Origin: Nitrospinota bacterium
GTDB taxonomy: Bacteria > Tectomicrobia > Entotheonellia > J063
Direction of reading: 5' to 3'
Assembly: GCA_003696125.1 (NCBI GenBank)
Contig: RFHZ01000834.1
Location: 1-5,925, forward strand
Length of the DNA stretch: 5,925 bases
The notes beneath the pieces were generated by a model. That model worked only from the letters and a program-made list of their open reading frames with translations. It did not search any database and had not been told where the DNA came from. This document shows, one piece after another, positions 1 to 5,477 of the stretch. Within the stretch, counting starts at the first letter, position 1. Each line of letters starts with the position of its first letter. The position numbers were made by a program, and so were the translations under genes.

Positions 1-38
1 CCTTCACTGTCCCCGCCTTCACTATCTCCCCCTTCACT
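1..38 (-). repeat. Start of SEGGD-coding 15-bp repeat in protease A
   Basis: The unit AGT GAA GGN GGN GAY begins at codon 292 (base 38). Two full copies and the start of a third are visible before the window ends. The tract sits five codons after Cys287 and eight after the oxyanion Asn284. It is homologous in position and sequence to the tract in protease C. The total copy number cannot be seen. Confidence 0.85.
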
Positions 39-911
39 GGCCGGGATGGTGCAGTCGTAGTTGCCGACCGAGGCGACCATGATTACACCCTGCTGCTTGA
101 GCCACTGGATGACCTGGTGGAGGAGGGTGCTCCCCTGGTAGAAGCCGAGGCTCATGTTCACCACCCGGATGTTCTTCTCGGGATGGTTATAGACCCAGAG
201 GAGGCCGTTGATCAGGTCGGAGAGATAGCCGCCACCCGCGTCGTCAAGAACCCGCACGGCATACAGCTTGGCCCTGGGAGCCATCCCCTTCACCTTGAGC
301 TGTGCCAGATTGCCGGCGATGATCCCGGCGATGTGGGTGCCGTGGCCATTGCGATCAGTGTAGTCGGCAGGGTCCTCACCCGCCCGCGCATTGTACCCTC
401 CTCTTACCACCCTGGAGAGATCAGGGTGGGTGGTATCGATGCCGGTATCGAGCACGGCAACACGCACCCTATCTCCATCGGTCCCTTCGACTTTATGCCG
501 GTATATCTGGCGCATCGACCAGCGATAGCCATGATCCGTATACTGCTCCTTCCCTGTTTGGGGATCAATCGGGGTGACAAAGCTTCCCTGGATCCCTCCG
601 GCCAGGCTCTGGGCGGTGATGGAGGTGTCCTCCTCGATGGCCTCCACCTCTGGATAGCTCTGCAGGATATCCAGGGCCACCTGGGGCTGGTCGGGGGGGA
701 GTTGAATCACCAGGGCCGGAAAGGGGGAGAGGCGTTGCAGGATGGTGCTACTGCTGGCCTGGACAATCGCCTCCTGTACCTCTACCGGTGTGTCCTGGCT
801 GAAGATGGCGATGCGTCGCAGGTTTTCTGCCTTGACTGGAAGGGGACTGAGCACCAGACCCAGAGCCAGGAAGATGAGTCCAAACAGGATAATGAATTGC
901 CGACGTGCCAT
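1..911 (-). CDS. Secreted subtilisin-like serine protease A (S8 family), 3' end cut by window
   Basis: This reading frame starts at ATG 911-909 and runs off the left edge, so 303 codons are visible. An AAGGAGGAG ribosome binding site a few bases upstream supports the start. Residues 1-28 form a signal peptide (MARRQF, a hydrophobic core, then VKA before ENLRR). Residues about 31-100 resemble an inhibitor_I9 propeptide, ending in VEAIEED. The catalytic domain follows, with Asp155 in VAVLDTGID, His190 in RNGHGTHIAG and oxyanion-hole Asn284 in ASVGNYDC. The frame then enters a SEGGD pentapeptide repeat that the window edge interrupts. The nucleophilic Ser must lie outside, so activity cannot be confirmed here. 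It follows protease B by 18 nt and is probably translated from the same transcript. It most resembles protease C: both have DTP-EVQEAIV in the propeptide, AGGGYLSDLI, SLGFYQ and NYDC-IPASEGGDS. An exported endoprotease is likely; the substrate is unknown. Confidence 0.93.
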   Translation of the reverse strand, partial: MARRQFIILFGLIFLALGLVLSPLPVKAENLRRIAIFSQDTPVEVQEAIVQASSSTILQRLSPFPALVIQLPPDQPQVALDILQSYPEVEAIEEDTSITAQSLAGGIQGSFVTPIDPQTGKEQYTDHGYRWSMRQIYRHKVEGTDGDRVRVAVLDTGIDTTHPDLSRVVRGGYNARAGEDPADYTDRNGHGTHIAGIIAGNLAQLKVKGMAPRAKLYAVRVLDDAGGGYLSDLINGLLWVYNHPEKNIRVVNMSLGFYQGSTLLHQVIQWLKQQGVIMVASVGNYDCTIPASEGGDSEGGDSE

Positions 912-929: not shown

Positions 930-2375
930 TTACTTACTTTGGACCTGATCGATGGCCAGGGCGGCATCGATCAGGCCGGCCCCCTGCGCTTCCCAATCTA
1001 GACCGAGATCCAGAGCGGTATCCTGTAAGATCTGGCGAATCTCTTCAGGAGTCAGAGTCCTGTCTACGCTGAGCAGAAGAGCCACCAGGCCGGTGACATG
1101 GGCGGCGGCCTGGCTGGTCCCGCTCCCCAGCCCATAGCCCTTGTTGAGATTGATCGAGAGCACCGGGTCCTGGCGATCCCCACCAGGGGCGACCAGATCC
1201 ACCTCTGGTCCCCGGATACTGTAGTCGGTGACCTCGGCCTCGATGTCGGTGGCACCCACGGCGATCGTCTCCGGGTAGCGGGCCGGATATTTCACCTGTT
1301 CCTGAGAGAGACAGCCGCCACCGCTGGCCGCGCCTTCCCCGGCTGCCCCTTCGCCGGCCGCGCCTTCCCCGCTGGCACATCCGGTACCGGCCGCTCCCTC
1401 TCCGGCCGCACCCTCCCCGGCCGCGCCTTCCCCGCTGGCACCGGTGGTGTCGTAATTCCCGGCCGAGGCGACCATGATCACACCGGCCTCGTGCAGCAGG
1501 CGGACCATGCGATGGAGGAGTTCACTCCCGGTGGAGAAGCCGAGGCTCATATTCACGATGCGGATCTTGCGGTTCTTATAGACCCAATTGAGCCCGTTGA
1601 TCAGGTCGGAGAGATACCCGCTCCCGTCATCGCCCAGCACCTTGACCGGATAGAGCTTCGCTCTGGGGGCGATGCCGCGTAAATGCGACCTCTTGCGCAG
1701 CTTGGCTGCAATGATGCCGGCGATATGGGTACCGTGCCCGTTGCGATCCAGGGTATCCCGTTCCTCTTCACCGATGCGGGCGTTGTATCCCCGGGCCACG
1801 ATCTTGTGCAGGTCGGGATGAGTGGGGTCGATACCGGTGTCGAGCACGGCGATATCGACCTTGTCTCCCTGTCGCCTGGGATCGGCCTGATCCAGGTAGA
1901 TCTGCCACAAATTCCAGGGGTAGTCTTCTTCGCTCTCTTCCAGCATTTCCGGATCAGCCGGGATGATGAGGCTCCCCTGCACCCCTCCCTCTCCCCCGGG
2001 AGTGGCGGTAGGGGAGGGATATCTCTGGCTCTCGGCCCCGAGCGACACGTCTTCTTCGATCCGTTCCACGGCGGGATGACGGTACAGGAAGTCGAGAGCA
2101 GTCTCTGCCTGATCTGGGGGGAGCTGGATCAGGGCCCCGTTGAGGAGGGGAAAGGCTTTGAGAAGGAGGCTTCCACTCTCTCTGATGACCCTTTTCTGCT
2201 CCCCCTCTTCGATCCCGGGTCGAAAGGCGACCAGCCGTCGCAGATGCCCTGCCGTGTTCACCTGCCCGACCCTTAGCCCGTGTCCACCATCTGCCCATGC
2301 CGGACAGGGCTCTGGGAAGAAGCCGGGCATGGCCAGCATGATCCCTAGCAGAACCCAGAGCATTCTCCCTGCCAT
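930..2375 (-). CDS. Secreted subtilisin-like serine protease B (S8 family), complete
   Basis: This is an intact 481-residue S8 protease. ATG 2375-2373 is preceded by an AAGGAG site seven bases upstream. Residues 1-28 are a signal peptide (AWA before DGGHG). Residues about 45-115 are an I9-like propeptide ending VERIEEDVSL, followed by a linker rich in Gly, Pro and acidic residues (about 118-150). The catalytic domain starts near YPWNLWQI. Asp179 (VLDTGID), His214 (NGHGTHIAG) and Ser421 (GSGTSQAAAH) form the triad, and Asn307 (ASAGNYD) is the oxyanion residue. Residues 315-350 are GEGAA repeats inserted between Asn307 and the conserved YPARYPETIAVGATD segment, with Cys333 and Cys355 within and after them. 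The protein ends shortly after the catalytic domain, with no anchor or sorting domain. The Ser motif lacks the family's usual Met and Pro (GTSMAxPH). The gene lies 18 nt before protease A. The family call is firm; the target is unknown. Confidence 0.96.
   Translation of the reverse strand: MAGRMLWVLLGIMLAMPGFFPEPCPAWADGGHGLRVGQVNTAGHLRRLVAFRPGIEEGEQKRVIRESGSLLLKAFPLLNGALIQLPPDQAETALDFLYRHPAVERIEEDVSLGAESQRYPSPTATPGGEGGVQGSLIIPADPEMLEESEEDYPWNLWQIYLDQADPRRQGDKVDIAVLDTGIDPTHPDLHKIVARGYNARIGEEERDTLDRNGHGTHIAGIIAAKLRKRSHLRGIAPRAKLYPVKVLGDDGSGYLSDLINGLNWVYKNRKIRIVNMSLGFSTGSELLHRMVRLLHEAGVIMVASAGNYDTTGASGEGAAGEGAAGEGAAGTGCASGEGAAGEGAAGEGAASGGGCLSQEQVKYPARYPETIAVGATDIEAEVTDYSIRGPEVDLVAPGGDRQDPVLSINLNKGYGLGSGTSQAAAHVTGLVALLLSVDRTLTPEEIRQILQDTALDLGLDWEAQGAGLIDAALAIDQVQSK
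1326..1433 (-). repeat. GEGAA-coding 15-bp tandem repeat in protease B
   Basis: Codons 315-350 encode three GEGAA units, then GTGCAS, then three more GEGAA units. The DNA is a 15-bp minisatellite of the form GGN GAN GGN GCN GCC with scattered synonymous changes. The repeat is in frame and therefore coding. It occupies the loop just after the oxyanion-hole Asn of the protease. Confidence 0.9.
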
Positions 2376-2461
2376 CTCTTTTCTCCTTCTTTAACTCCGT
2401 CTAAAAGTTTCCTCTTGTTCCCCTGGTCATATTTGCAATTTTTATACCTTAAAGACCATTG

Positions 2462-2467
2462 ATTATA
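2462..2467 (-). promoter_or_regulatory. Candidate -10 box for the B-A protease pair
   Basis: A perfect TATAAT lies on the minus strand about 87 bases before the ATG of protease B, inside an A/T-rich patch that contrasts with the GC-rich coding DNA. No good TTGACA-like -35 element lies 16-18 bases upstream; the nearest, TTGTGC, is about 22 bases away. A second -10-like TATAAA lies about 27 bases downstream. A real promoter in this area is plausible, but the exact element is uncertain. Confidence 0.35.
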
Positions 2468-2597
2468 TTTTCTTCAAATTTTTTGTACCGCACAAACCGT
2501 CTGCCTTAACCAGAGCGGGTTTCCCCTTCTGGCTGCTACCGGTCTGACTCGCGATCAGCAGGAGGATGGTGAGAGGGAGAAGGAAAAATTTTCTCAG
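2463..2597 (-). pseudogene. Cryptic 44-codon frame resembling a signal peptide, no standard start
   Basis: From CTG at 2597-2595 to TAA at 2465-2463, the minus strand reads LRKFFLLPLTILLLIASQTG followed by a lysine-rich tail ending KNLKKI. The first part looks like a Sec or lipoprotein signal peptide: basic n-region, then an uninterrupted hydrophobic core. No ATG, GTG or TTG precedes it in frame before a TAG upstream, and no good ribosome binding site is positioned for CTG. It may be the remnant of a small secreted protein whose ATG mutated to CTG, a genuine CTG-started peptide, or chance. It overlaps the terminator-like hairpin and the TATAAT box, which compete as explanations. Confidence 0.2.
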
Positions 2598-2639
2598 GCA
2601 GAGGGAGCAATGCGGTGAAATCCCTGTTCTTCCCTGCCT
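2584..2639 (-). terminator. Possible weak intrinsic terminator after protease C
   Basis: On the minus strand AGGCAGGGA (2639-2631) can pair with TCCCTCTGCCT (2606-2596) with a two-base bulge. The loop is about 24 bases. A run of five T follows at 2588-2584. The T-run begins about eight bases after the stem and the loop is large, so this is a poor match to a strong terminator. Its place downstream of gene C fits a transcript end. Confidence 0.3.
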
Positions 2640-2712
2640 TCTCTAAATAGTGCAATTTCTGCCTGGTAGAAGAAGAGGTGGTAGCAGGGGGAGAAGCAGG
2701 GAGGAGGGGAGA

Positions 2713-4089
2713 TCATGGCCAGTCCCCGGCTACTTCCACTGCCCACTCTGCATCGACGAGCCCGGCTCCCTGCACCTCCCAGGGCTCTCCCAGATCGGTG
2801 GCCGTCTCCTGCAGGATCTGCCGCACCTCCTGCGGGCCCAGTGCCGGGTTCACCTCCAGCAGCAGCGCCGCCACACCGCTCACATGGGCGGCCGCCTGGC
2901 TGGTCCCGCTCCCCAGTCCAAATCCGCTTCCCAGATAGGTGGAGAGGATGGGAGCCGTGCGGGTACCACCCGGGGCGACCACATCTACGGCCGGTCCCTG
3001 CACGCTGTAGGAGGTGACACTCCCTGTCTCATCGGTGGCCCCCACGGCTATGGTTTCCGGGTACTGGGCCGGATATTTCACCTGCCAGGTGCAATCGAGG
3101 CCGCTATCGCCCCCTTCACTGTCCCCCCCTTCGCTATCGCCCCCTTCACTGGTGGCACCGATGCTATCTCCTCCTTCACTGGCCGGGATACCGCAGTCAT
3201 AGTTTCCCACCGAGGCGACCAGCACGATCCCCTCCTGGTAGAGTCTGCGGATGACTTCGTGCAGGAGGGGGCTGTCCTGGTAAAATCCCAGGCTCATGTT
3301 GATGACCCGGATCCCTTTCTCGGGATGCGCATAGATCCAGAGCAGGCCGGCGATGAGGTCGGAGAGGTATCCGCCCCCGGCATCGTTCAACACCTTCACC
3401 GCATACAGCCTGGCCTTATAGGCAACACCCAGTACCCCCTGTCCCTGCTGGCTGGCGATGATGATCCCGGCGATATGTGTCCCGTGACCGTTGCGATCGA
3501 TCCAGTCGTCCGGGTTCTCGCCGGCCCGGGCATTGTACCCTCCCTCGATCCTGATCCCGCTCCCAAAGGCCGGGTGCACCGGATCGATGCCGGTATCGAG
3601 CACCGCCACCGTTACCCCCTTGCCTCGAATAGCCAGGGGAATCTGGTCATGATGGATCTCTACCAGGTTCCAGGGATAGACATTCGATCCGGGGAGGGAG
3701 GGGAGGATGAGGCCCTGGCTACCCCCTTCAGCGGGTAAGGCCGGGACGGTGATGGCGGCATCCTCCTCCACCGCGACGACCTCTGGAGCACTCTGCAGCA
3801 TGGCGAGGGCCATTCCCGGGTGGGCAGGGAGCTTGAGGGCCATGGCGTTGAGCGAGGGAAAACGTTGCAGGACCTTGCTGTCGCTTTGGGCAACGATCGC
3901 TTCCTGCACCTCCGGTGGAGTGTCTGGTCGAAACTGGACGAGCCAGCGCTTGTTGGCTGCCCAGGTCGTGGCCGTTCCCAGTCCTATCAGCAGGCCGAGC
4001 ACAAGCAGGGCACAAAGTCCCTGTCCTGCCCGGAACAGGGAGGAGGGGGTCGACCTGGTTGCGCTGGCGTGCCATGCGCTCTTTTTCAT
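2713..4089 (-). CDS. Secreted subtilisin-like serine protease C (S8 family), complete
   Basis: This is an intact 458-residue S8 protease. ATG 4089-4087 has AAGGAGG eight bases upstream. The signal peptide is long: a polar basic n-region (about 1-24), a hydrophobic core, and TTWAA before NKRWLVQF, with cleavage near residue 45. Residues about 46-115 resemble an I9 propeptide, ending VVAVEED. The mature part starts near YPWNLVEI. Asp165 (VLDTGID), His202 (NGHGTHIAG) and Ser397 (GSGTSQAAAH) form the triad, with Asn296 (ASVGNYDC) as oxyanion residue. An acidic SEGGD repeat at 304-329 is bracketed by Cys299 and Cys333, which could form a disulfide closing the repeat as a loop (inference). The C-terminus is short and ends in DWP. 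The gene starts 43 nt after the D frame's stop and is likely co-transcribed with D. Its closest visible relative is protease A. Substrate unknown. Confidence 0.96.
   Translation of the reverse strand: MKKSAWHASATRSTPSSLFRAGQGLCALLVLGLLIGLGTATTWAANKRWLVQFRPDTPPEVQEAIVAQSDSKVLQRFPSLNAMALKLPAHPGMALAMLQSAPEVVAVEEDAAITVPALPAEGGSQGLILPSLPGSNVYPWNLVEIHHDQIPLAIRGKGVTVAVLDTGIDPVHPAFGSGIRIEGGYNARAGENPDDWIDRNGHGTHIAGIIIASQQGQGVLGVAYKARLYAVKVLNDAGGGYLSDLIAGLLWIYAHPEKGIRVINMSLGFYQDSPLLHEVIRRLYQEGIVLVASVGNYDCGIPASEGGDSIGATSEGGDSEGGDSEGGDSGLDCTWQVKYPAQYPETIAVGATDETGSVTSYSVQGPAVDVVAPGGTRTAPILSTYLGSGFGLGSGTSQAAAHVSGVAALLLEVNPALGPQEVRQILQETATDLGEPWEVQGAGLVDAEWAVEVAGDWP
3103..3180 (-). repeat. SEGGD-coding 15-bp tandem repeat in protease C
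   Basis: Codons 304-329 encode one SEGGD, a SIGAT spacer unit, then three SEGGD and a final Ser. The three adjacent units alternate in codon use (GAT AGC, then GAC AGT), so the DNA also has a 30-bp higher-order period. The coding strand carries G-runs of five, seven and five. The repeat is in frame within the protease. Confidence 0.9.
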
Positions 4090-4132
4090 CGTTTTTTCCT
4101 CCTTGCCTCTCTGTTGTTAACCTCTTCTCCTT

Positions 4133-5477
4133 TTACCAGCGTCTGGCCTGCTCTATGGCGAGAGGCGCATTGATGAGCCCCGCTCCCTGCACCTCCCAGG
4201 TCTCTCCCAGATCGGTGGCCGTCTCCTGCAGGATCTGCCGGATATCCTCGGGAGTGAGATTCTTGTTCTTGGCTACGCTGAGCAGGAGGGTGGCCAGCCC
4301 GCTCACATGGGCGGCCGCCTGGCTGGTTCCATTCCCCAGTCCGTACCCACCCTGGATATCGGTGGAGAAGATCGGGTCGGTATGGGTTCCTCCAGGAGCC
4401 ACCACATCGATCTCTATCCCCGGGATGCTGTACGGGGCGATGCGGGCAGAGATATCGGTGGCACCCACGGCGATCGTCTCCGGGTAGCGGGCCGGGTACA
4501 GGATCTGGGGCTGGGTGACACAGTCGCCGGCCGCATTCCCCGGCCGCACCCTCCCCGGCTGCCCCTTCGCCGCTGGCACATCCGGTGCCGGCTGCGCCTT
4601 CGCCGGCTGCGCCCTCGCCGGTTGCTCCGGTGCTCTCATAGTTCCCTACCGCCGCCACCAGCACGATCCCCCGGTCCAGGAGCTTCTGGAGGACCTCTTG
4701 CAGCAGCAGGCTCCCCTGGGAGAAGCCGAGACTCATGTTCACCACCTGGACCCGGTAGCTGTTGGGATGATCGTGCAGCCAGCTCAGGCCGTTGATCAGG
4801 TCGGAGAGGTACCCGCTCCCGCTCTCATCCAGGACCTTGACCGCATAGAGCACCGCCTGGGGAGCGATACCCCGGAAGTAGGGATCGTCCAGGCTGGCGG
4901 CAATGATCCCGGCGATGTGCGTCCCATGCCCGTTGCGATCGATCCAGTCGTCCGGGTTCTCGCCGGCCCGGGCATTGTATCCCCGCACCACTACATTGGC
5001 GAGTGAGGGGTGGGAGGGATCGATACCGGTATCGATCACGGCGACGCGCATCCCGTGTCCCAGGTAGTCATGGTTGTGACGCTTGATCTGATCCAGGCCG
5101 ATCTGGTGCAGGTTCCAGGGGTATCCTCCCCCGGTCGTTGCCGGATCGGTAGCGGTGACCAGCTCGCTCTGCACCCCCCCGCTCAGCATCTGGAGGGAGA
5201 GGGAGAAGTCTGGTTCCATGACCCGTACTTCCGGCTGTTCCTGCAAGAAGCGGAGCGCCGTATCCGCCATGGCCGGATCTGCCGGGAACTCAATGGCCCA
5301 GGCATTGACCAGGGGGAGCTTGTGCAGCACGCTGCTCCCGCTGGCCTCGATCAGGCTCGTCTGCACCGCTGTGGGGGTACCGTCCAGAAAGGCGACGATC
5401 CACCGCTCTCCGGCCGCCCAGGCGGTGGCGGTGACCAGGAGCAAGATACATACCAGAACACCGATTCTCCTTACCAT
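4133..5477 (-). pseudogene. Secreted subtilisin-like serine protease D, frameshifted in its repeat tract
   Basis: ATG 5477-5475 is chosen because AGGAGG lies eight bases upstream and a signal peptide follows at once (MVRRIGVLV, hydrophobic core, ATAWAA before GERW). An in-frame start 20 codons earlier would overlap the PilZ gene and add only polar residues. Residues about 23-92 are an I9-like propeptide. Asp149 (VIDTGID), His184 (NGHGTHIAG) and Asn279 (AAVGNYE) are present. GEGAA repeats start at residue 287. Near base 4535 the frame breaks: beyond it, YPARYPETIAVGATD, GNGTSQAAAH (Ser codon 4324-4322) and the normal C-terminus lie in another frame, ending at TAA 4133. The pattern fits loss of two G from one repeat unit. 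Restoring them gives a 448-residue protein. Read as is, the product lacks the catalytic Ser and ends in unrelated sequence. Sequencing error, recent pseudogene and switchable gene remain possible. Confidence 0.9.
4529..4619 (-). repeat. GEGAA-coding 15-bp tandem repeat in protease D, with a 2-bp lesion
   Basis: Two GEGAA units, GTGCAS, then two more GEGAA units and a damaged last unit. The last unit reads GGGGAATGCGGCC where the pattern predicts GGGGAAGGTGCGGCC, a two-base shortfall at about 4535-4536. The layout with a central TGCAS spacer matches the tract in protease B closely. The following in-frame residues are GDCVTQ, with a Cys comparable to Cys355 of B. Confidence 0.88.

Follow-up and report, generated by a model that had tools for sequence, protein, structure and literature searches.

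The window analyzed here, a stretch of 5,925 nucleotides from an uncultured bacterium, contains four tandem subtilase genes, each of which carries an array of pentapeptide repeats immediately downstream of the codon for the oxyanion-hole asparagine. The initial annotation had assigned SEGGD repeats to proteases A and C and GEGAA repeats to proteases B and D, and both assignments, as well as the placement of all arrays at a single homologous site, proved correct. There is, in our estimation, an even chance that the array forms a disulfide-anchored, disordered loop that tunes substrate access and has been diversified by the gain and loss of units together with gene conversion. In such a scheme, an in-frame 15-bp repeat would have enlarged the S1-pocket loop of these secreted enzymes to a disordered, net-negative segment of 30-55 residues, closed fully or partly by two cysteines whose disulfide would form after export. 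Slippage or unequal recombination would shift the number of units, always in frame, and gene conversion between the paralogues would spread the loop types. Tethered at the S1/S' side of the cleft, the loop could act as a lid or an exosite, with its charge, length and possibly its redox state determining which substrates get to the active site, and its Gly/Ser/Ala/Asp/Glu composition would also spare it from self-cleavage by the protease.

The gene row and the site of the repeats in the subtilase fold

The window corresponds to one entire contig (G000:C231) of the source draft assembly, which comprises 990 contigs and 4.18 Mb. Its four Peptidase_S8 genes are transcribed in the order D, C, B, A and are preceded by a gene for a PilZ-domain protein (Table 1). 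Contig C200, which overlaps positions 1-169 of the window at 97%, completes protease A and continues with a GEGAA-type copy (E) and a SEGGD-type copy (F). If this overlap is right, six subtilase genes stand in one row. The repeat types alternate strictly along it (GEGAA in D, B and E, SEGGD in C, A and F), a pattern that resembles a duplicated gene pair, although the trees do not show such a duplication. Paralogue F (L014; C200, positions 2210-4243) combines its SEGGD loop with a C-terminal RTX (HemolysinCabind) tail of true calcium-binding nonapeptides. The frameshift of protease D falls within its array (window positions 4529-4545), where a genuine defect and an assembly error are indistinguishable. 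Further family copies are located on contigs C192 (GEGAA), C692 (SEGAD) and C458 (SEGAD).

Table 1. Positions in the window of the subtilase genes, their repeat arrays and the residues that flank them.
Feature	Position	Strand	Basis or remark
Protease A, 5' part	3..911	(-)	remainder on contig C200, 5735-6322
Array of A, SEGGD x5	3-38	(-)	begins at 38, continues on contig C200
Protease B, GEGAA type	930..2375	(-)	
Array of B, GEGAA x3 - GTGCAS - GEGAA x3	1326..1433	(-)	
Cys codons of B	Cys333 1377-1379, Cys355 1311-1313	(-)	bracket second half of array
Protease C, secreted pro-subtilase, Peptidase_S8	2713..4089	(-)	PF00082, conserved columns, AF2 model
Asn296 codon of C, oxyanion hole	3202..3204	(-)	phmmer alignment with savinase/M-protease; invariant in 40 sequences
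Cys299 codon of C, upstream bracket	3193..3195	(-)	3 residues past Asn296, five before array
Array of C, SEGGD-SIGAT-SEGGD-SEGGD-SEGGD-S, residues 304-329	3103..3180	(-)	codon read-out
Cys333 codon of C, downstream bracket	3091..3093	(-)	four residues past array, 6 before Tyr339 of YPAQYPETIAVGAT
Protease D, GEGAA type	4133..5477	(-)	reading frame broken inside array near 4540
Array of D, GEGAA with mid-array Cys and frame break	about 4529..4619	(-)	
Cys codons of D	mid-array 4578-4580, second 4520-4522	(-)	

Protease C belongs to peptidase family S8, as indicated by its match to PF00082 (E=2.7e-59) and the conservation of the catalytic residues Asp165, His202 and Ser397 and the oxyanion Asn296, all located by alignment. 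Its score with the T7SS mycosin model (TIGR03921) was 156 bits, below the curated cut-off of 278.75. An AlphaFold2 model computed with 40 sequences (pLDDT 84, pTM 0.83; with 5 sequences, the model was poor, with a pLDDT of 54) shows a pro-subtilisin fold with an N-terminal propeptide, residues 45-456 aligning to pro-Tk-subtilisin and pro-subtilisin E (Z 49, rmsd 2.1-2.3). In an alignment with savinase, the loop of calcium site A has QQGQG in protease C in place of NNSIG, and the Asp of HPD is replaced, giving HPA; the classic strong calcium site may thus have been lost.

Both the phmmer and the 40-sequence alignments place the insert of protease C between Asn296 and Tyr339; the corresponding segment of savinase and M-protease is about 8 residues long. 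In all copies read from the source genome, the array starts exactly seven residues past the oxyanion asparagine and ends a few residues ahead of a YPxxYPE motif. We take the loop between this asparagine and YPxxYP to be the S1-pocket loop, residues ~156-166 of BPN' in subtilisin numbering. Positions 3103-3192 of the window encode residues 300-329 of protease C, and residues 301-330 have pLDDT values below 50 in the model, with Cys299 and Cys333 just outside this stretch; the array is accordingly predicted to be disordered. Its repetitive nature is not due to chance, since amino-acid matches at lag 5 run to a maximum length of 11 in protease C but never exceed 4 in 2000 codon shuffles.

Enlarged loops of this kind are rare. 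Relatives were drawn from genome and viral collections, and the 136 loci that could be parsed have true loops of 0-19 residues, with a single exception (52 loci were unparseable, and longer values reflected parsing errors at an earlier Gly-Asn). This exception, from a genome of the same class as the source (G004), carries (SGGDD)n between Cys277 and Cys313. A further scan of genome contigs for relatives yielded ordinary subtilases without the insert, and a tblastn search of plasmids returned only relatives of less than 60% identity. Two distant relatives from the Elusimicrobia and Chloroflexi (L128 and L155) have two cysteines in a short loop past the oxyanion asparagine (GNNGPCANCVNYP and GNSGSSGLCCNVTYP). 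Across the whole source genome, the tandem pattern [SG]EG[AG][DA] is confined to the subtilase family, save for one stray match on contig C163, and a three-unit repeat pattern was found in none of 385 other genomes, which rules out a dispersed DNA repeat. A literature search returned nothing relevant on SEGGD, on pentapeptide repeats in subtilisins or on subtilase repeat loops.

Kinship of the repeat types and apparent exchange between paralogues

The two kinds of array had initially been regarded as unrelated 15-bp repeat families that arose by independent expansion or wholesale swapping. However, SEGGD, SEGAD and GEGAA share the same register, an invariant Glu-Gly core and the common seven-residue offset from the asparagine. 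The Ser/Gly, Gly/Ala and Asp/Ala differences between them amount to one base each, and SEGAD represents an intermediate between the other two within the source genome itself. Moreover, two units of the same type from a single gene resemble each other no more than do two taken from different genes (SEGGD p 0.12, GEGAA p 0.46). Register, offset, single-base steps and unit distances together rule out unrelated families as well as purely independent expansion in the source genome. Of the original proposal, swapping survives in a local form only, reflected in the within-type likeness beside the array and the conversion-like tracts described below.

Type and copy number vary, as the initial annotation had suggested checking: there are 4-5 SEGGD, 4-7 GEGAA and 3-7 SEGAD units, and four exact and one partial SGGDD unit in the class relative, with the qualification that the draft assembly of the source genome breaks at these repeats and several of its contigs end in or near arrays, where the number of copies is uncertain. 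Variant units are few and comprise SIGAT, an interruption common to C and F, GTGCA in B, D and E, and SGGDG in F. The subtilase on contig C458 (L017, 6963-7592) contains SEGAD repeats twice, once in the S1 loop and once in another loop a short way upstream of the catalytic serine, the latter without cysteine. Two near-identical genes (~95% at the DNA level) differ in their SEGAD arrays, one having 4 units, RFCVSTAA and 3 units (L016, 1-213), the other 3 units (L017, 7468-7593). The C458 array looks like that of C692 minus its middle, which could reflect either a true deletion between repeats or an assembly collapse.

The 44 exact units in the source genome differ at third codon positions only (~47 minimum steps), whereas random mutation would change the peptide in 70-80% of cases, a comparison biased by the choice of units that match the consensus exactly. 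Because the variation among exact units is purely synonymous, the repeat peptide looks to us to be under purifying selection. In the class relative, the unit TCC GGT GGG GAT GAC is present in four identical copies and its serine codon class differs from that in the source genome; this array may have an independent origin or be much older.

These data bear on the alternative that replication slippage produced the repeat neutrally, in a surface loop permissive for any soluble sequence, with the disulfide merely limiting the damage. The 15-bp units, which always remain in frame, their solvent-friendly composition and the DNA-identical units of the class relative, indicative of recent expansion, would all be consistent with such an origin. 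Nevertheless, we consider it unlikely, given that the exact units differ synonymously only, that the cysteine pair and the seven-residue offset are conserved, and that the pattern occurs nowhere else in the genome and is absent from the 385 others.

Within the family, same-type gene pairs resemble each other most closely next to the array. Over the 7 codons that precede it, their nucleotide identity is 0.75, versus 0.48 for other pairs (the top value among 280 labelings), and over the 20 codons that follow it, 0.84 versus 0.72 (2 of 140 labelings); farther away, the excess drops to about zero. In addition, identity runs at polymorphic sites reach 30 for C-D, 24 for A-C (across the array) and for A-E, 23 for D-E and 18 for B-E, exceeding the values obtained in shuffles (95th percentile of the shuffled maxima 14; p ~0.001), in a permutation of site order that ignores rate differences along the gene. 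This evidence, good but not conclusive, suggests gene conversion among the tandem copies. The possibility that repeat type tracks gene ancestry was rejected: a tree of the pre-array region groups the types in 0% of bootstrap trees, and one of the post-array region groups SEGGD weakly (66%), both trees being poorly resolved.

The cysteine pair, its precedents and competing roles for the loop

The bracketing of the protease C tract by Cys299 and Cys333, and with it the possibility of a disulfide-closed loop, had already been pointed out in the initial annotation, and the same arrangement recurs across the family with one variation. In the SEGGD genes and the class relative, the pair surrounds the entire array, the first cysteine lying 2-3 residues past the asparagine (C, A, F and G004) and the second before the YP motif. 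In the GEGAA genes, including B, D and E, the first cysteine is instead part of the mid-array GTGCAS unit, so that only the second half of the array is enclosed, and C692 (SEGAD) is similar; the closed ring thus differs between paralogues. Of the genes whose sequence spans the loop, only C458 (SEGAD) does not have the array, or a portion of it, between two cysteines; it has one, possibly owing to assembly collapse. In the mature protease domains, this pair accounts for all cysteines (299/333 in C, 333/355 in B, 323/345 in E, 279/319 in F and 277/313 in G004), additional ones lying in signal segments, such as Cys26, the only other cysteine of protease C, or in the RTX tail of F. A and D, each read separately in two parts, have the same pair, and A has one more cysteine in an error-rich contig end. 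As the bracketing is kept across repeat types and in the class relative, and the mature domains otherwise lack cysteines, a disulfide is likely to form after export.

The closest and most telling precedent appears to be loop 2 of Plasmodium falciparum SUB1, a flexible, disulfide-closed loop between Cys521 and Cys534, next to the oxyanion Asn520, that bounds the S' pocket, is needed for full activity and has been described as unique among subtilisins in being closed by cysteines (PMC4024747). As in SUB1, the cysteine pair lies in the loop directly past the oxyanion asparagine in C, A, F and G004, and partly so in the GEGAA and SEGAD types. However, the SUB1 loop consists of 12 non-repetitive residues with a Lys tip, whereas the putative disulfide in this bacterial tandem family would enclose 20-40 residues built from acidic pentapeptide repeats whose type and number vary. 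It is tempting to extend the analogy to a redox switch, in which the cysteine pair near the oxyanion asparagine would activate the enzyme under oxidizing conditions and the repeats would act as a spacer. The site indeed matches that of the pair in SUB1, an enzyme that becomes less active when these cysteines are reduced or mutated, and the first cysteine is suitably close to the asparagine in the SEGGD types and G004, but it lies far from it in the GEGAA and SEGAD types, and a spacer role leaves the peptide-level conservation of the units unexplained, making this scenario improbable.

Another disulfide-tethered loop is the extended I2 loop of Dichelobacter nodosus AprV2, which is situated beside the substrate cleft and was shown to be an exosite (PMC2991261). 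It spans residues 82-102 (Cys89-Cys141), lacks repeats and precedes the catalytic His105, between strand beta1 and helix alpha2, whereas the insert of protease C follows Asn296, far after His202.

The Asp and Glu spacing of the repeats had also invited the speculation that they bind calcium. Acidic repeats held between cysteines could do so and thereby order the loop or stabilize the enzyme, a role compatible with the 9-10 acidic and zero basic residues of the SEGGD loops, the frequent calcium dependence of subtilisins and the true RTX calcium-binding tail of paralogue F. However, neither Dx[DN]xDG nor the RTX motif GGxGxDxU has a match in the seven loops. RTX nonapeptide repeats (PF00353) are Gly/Asp-rich and tandem like the repeat loop, but their motif is present in the C-terminal tail of F only. 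GEGAA, at the same site, provides one acid per five residues, half the acidic density, arguing against calcium binding as a shared role, and the model, which was computed without ions, shows disorder. The calcium insertion of Tk-subtilisin, whose pro-form ranks with the best structural matches to the protease C model, is likewise an acidic surface insertion but sits at another place in the fold. The insertion comprises 25 residues and binds four Ca2+ through ordered sites with a Dx[DN]xDG motif (PMC3123361), which the repeat loops lack. Collectively, these observations render a calcium-binding loop quite improbable.

Finally, a two-chain enzyme, whose exposed loop is nicked in maturation and whose halves are joined by the cysteine pair, would suit a long disordered loop in a protease with cysteines at both ends (SEGGD type and G004) but is highly improbable, as subtilases typically cleave after hydrophobic or basic P1 residues, which are missing from the units, and a nick in the half of the GEGAA-type loop outside the pair would remain uncovered.

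Implications for subtilase diversification

Repeat-loop subtilases occur in two genomes of the class, and in each, genes for oligopeptide-type family 5 solute-binding proteins adjoin them: two lie upstream of the C192 copy (L015, 1182-4642) and one downstream of the G004 copy (L019, 2921-4267). This neighborhood fits a role in protein scavenging with later peptide uptake.

The loop past the oxyanion asparagine, the S1-pocket loop, is a classic engineering site for subtilisin specificity. Going beyond a disulfide-anchored loop that tunes substrate access, one may envisage, as a possible but doubtful extension, a bacterial system for the diversification of protease specificity, in which tandem subtilases draw on a shared pool of pentapeptide-repeat loops that are moved by gene conversion, resized in 15-bp steps and individually anchored at the active site through a disulfide that may be redox-sensitive. 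If true, this would constitute a natural family that places interchangeable, cysteine-closed, disordered repeat modules at the S1-pocket loop, apparently exchanged between paralogues. It would exemplify the fast diversification of secreted proteases, offering ready-made loop modules and perhaps a means of retuning protease activity. As a bacterial parallel to the SUB1 loop, it would also allow simple hosts to be used for testing whether subtilases are controlled at the post-asparagine site by redox state or through an exosite.
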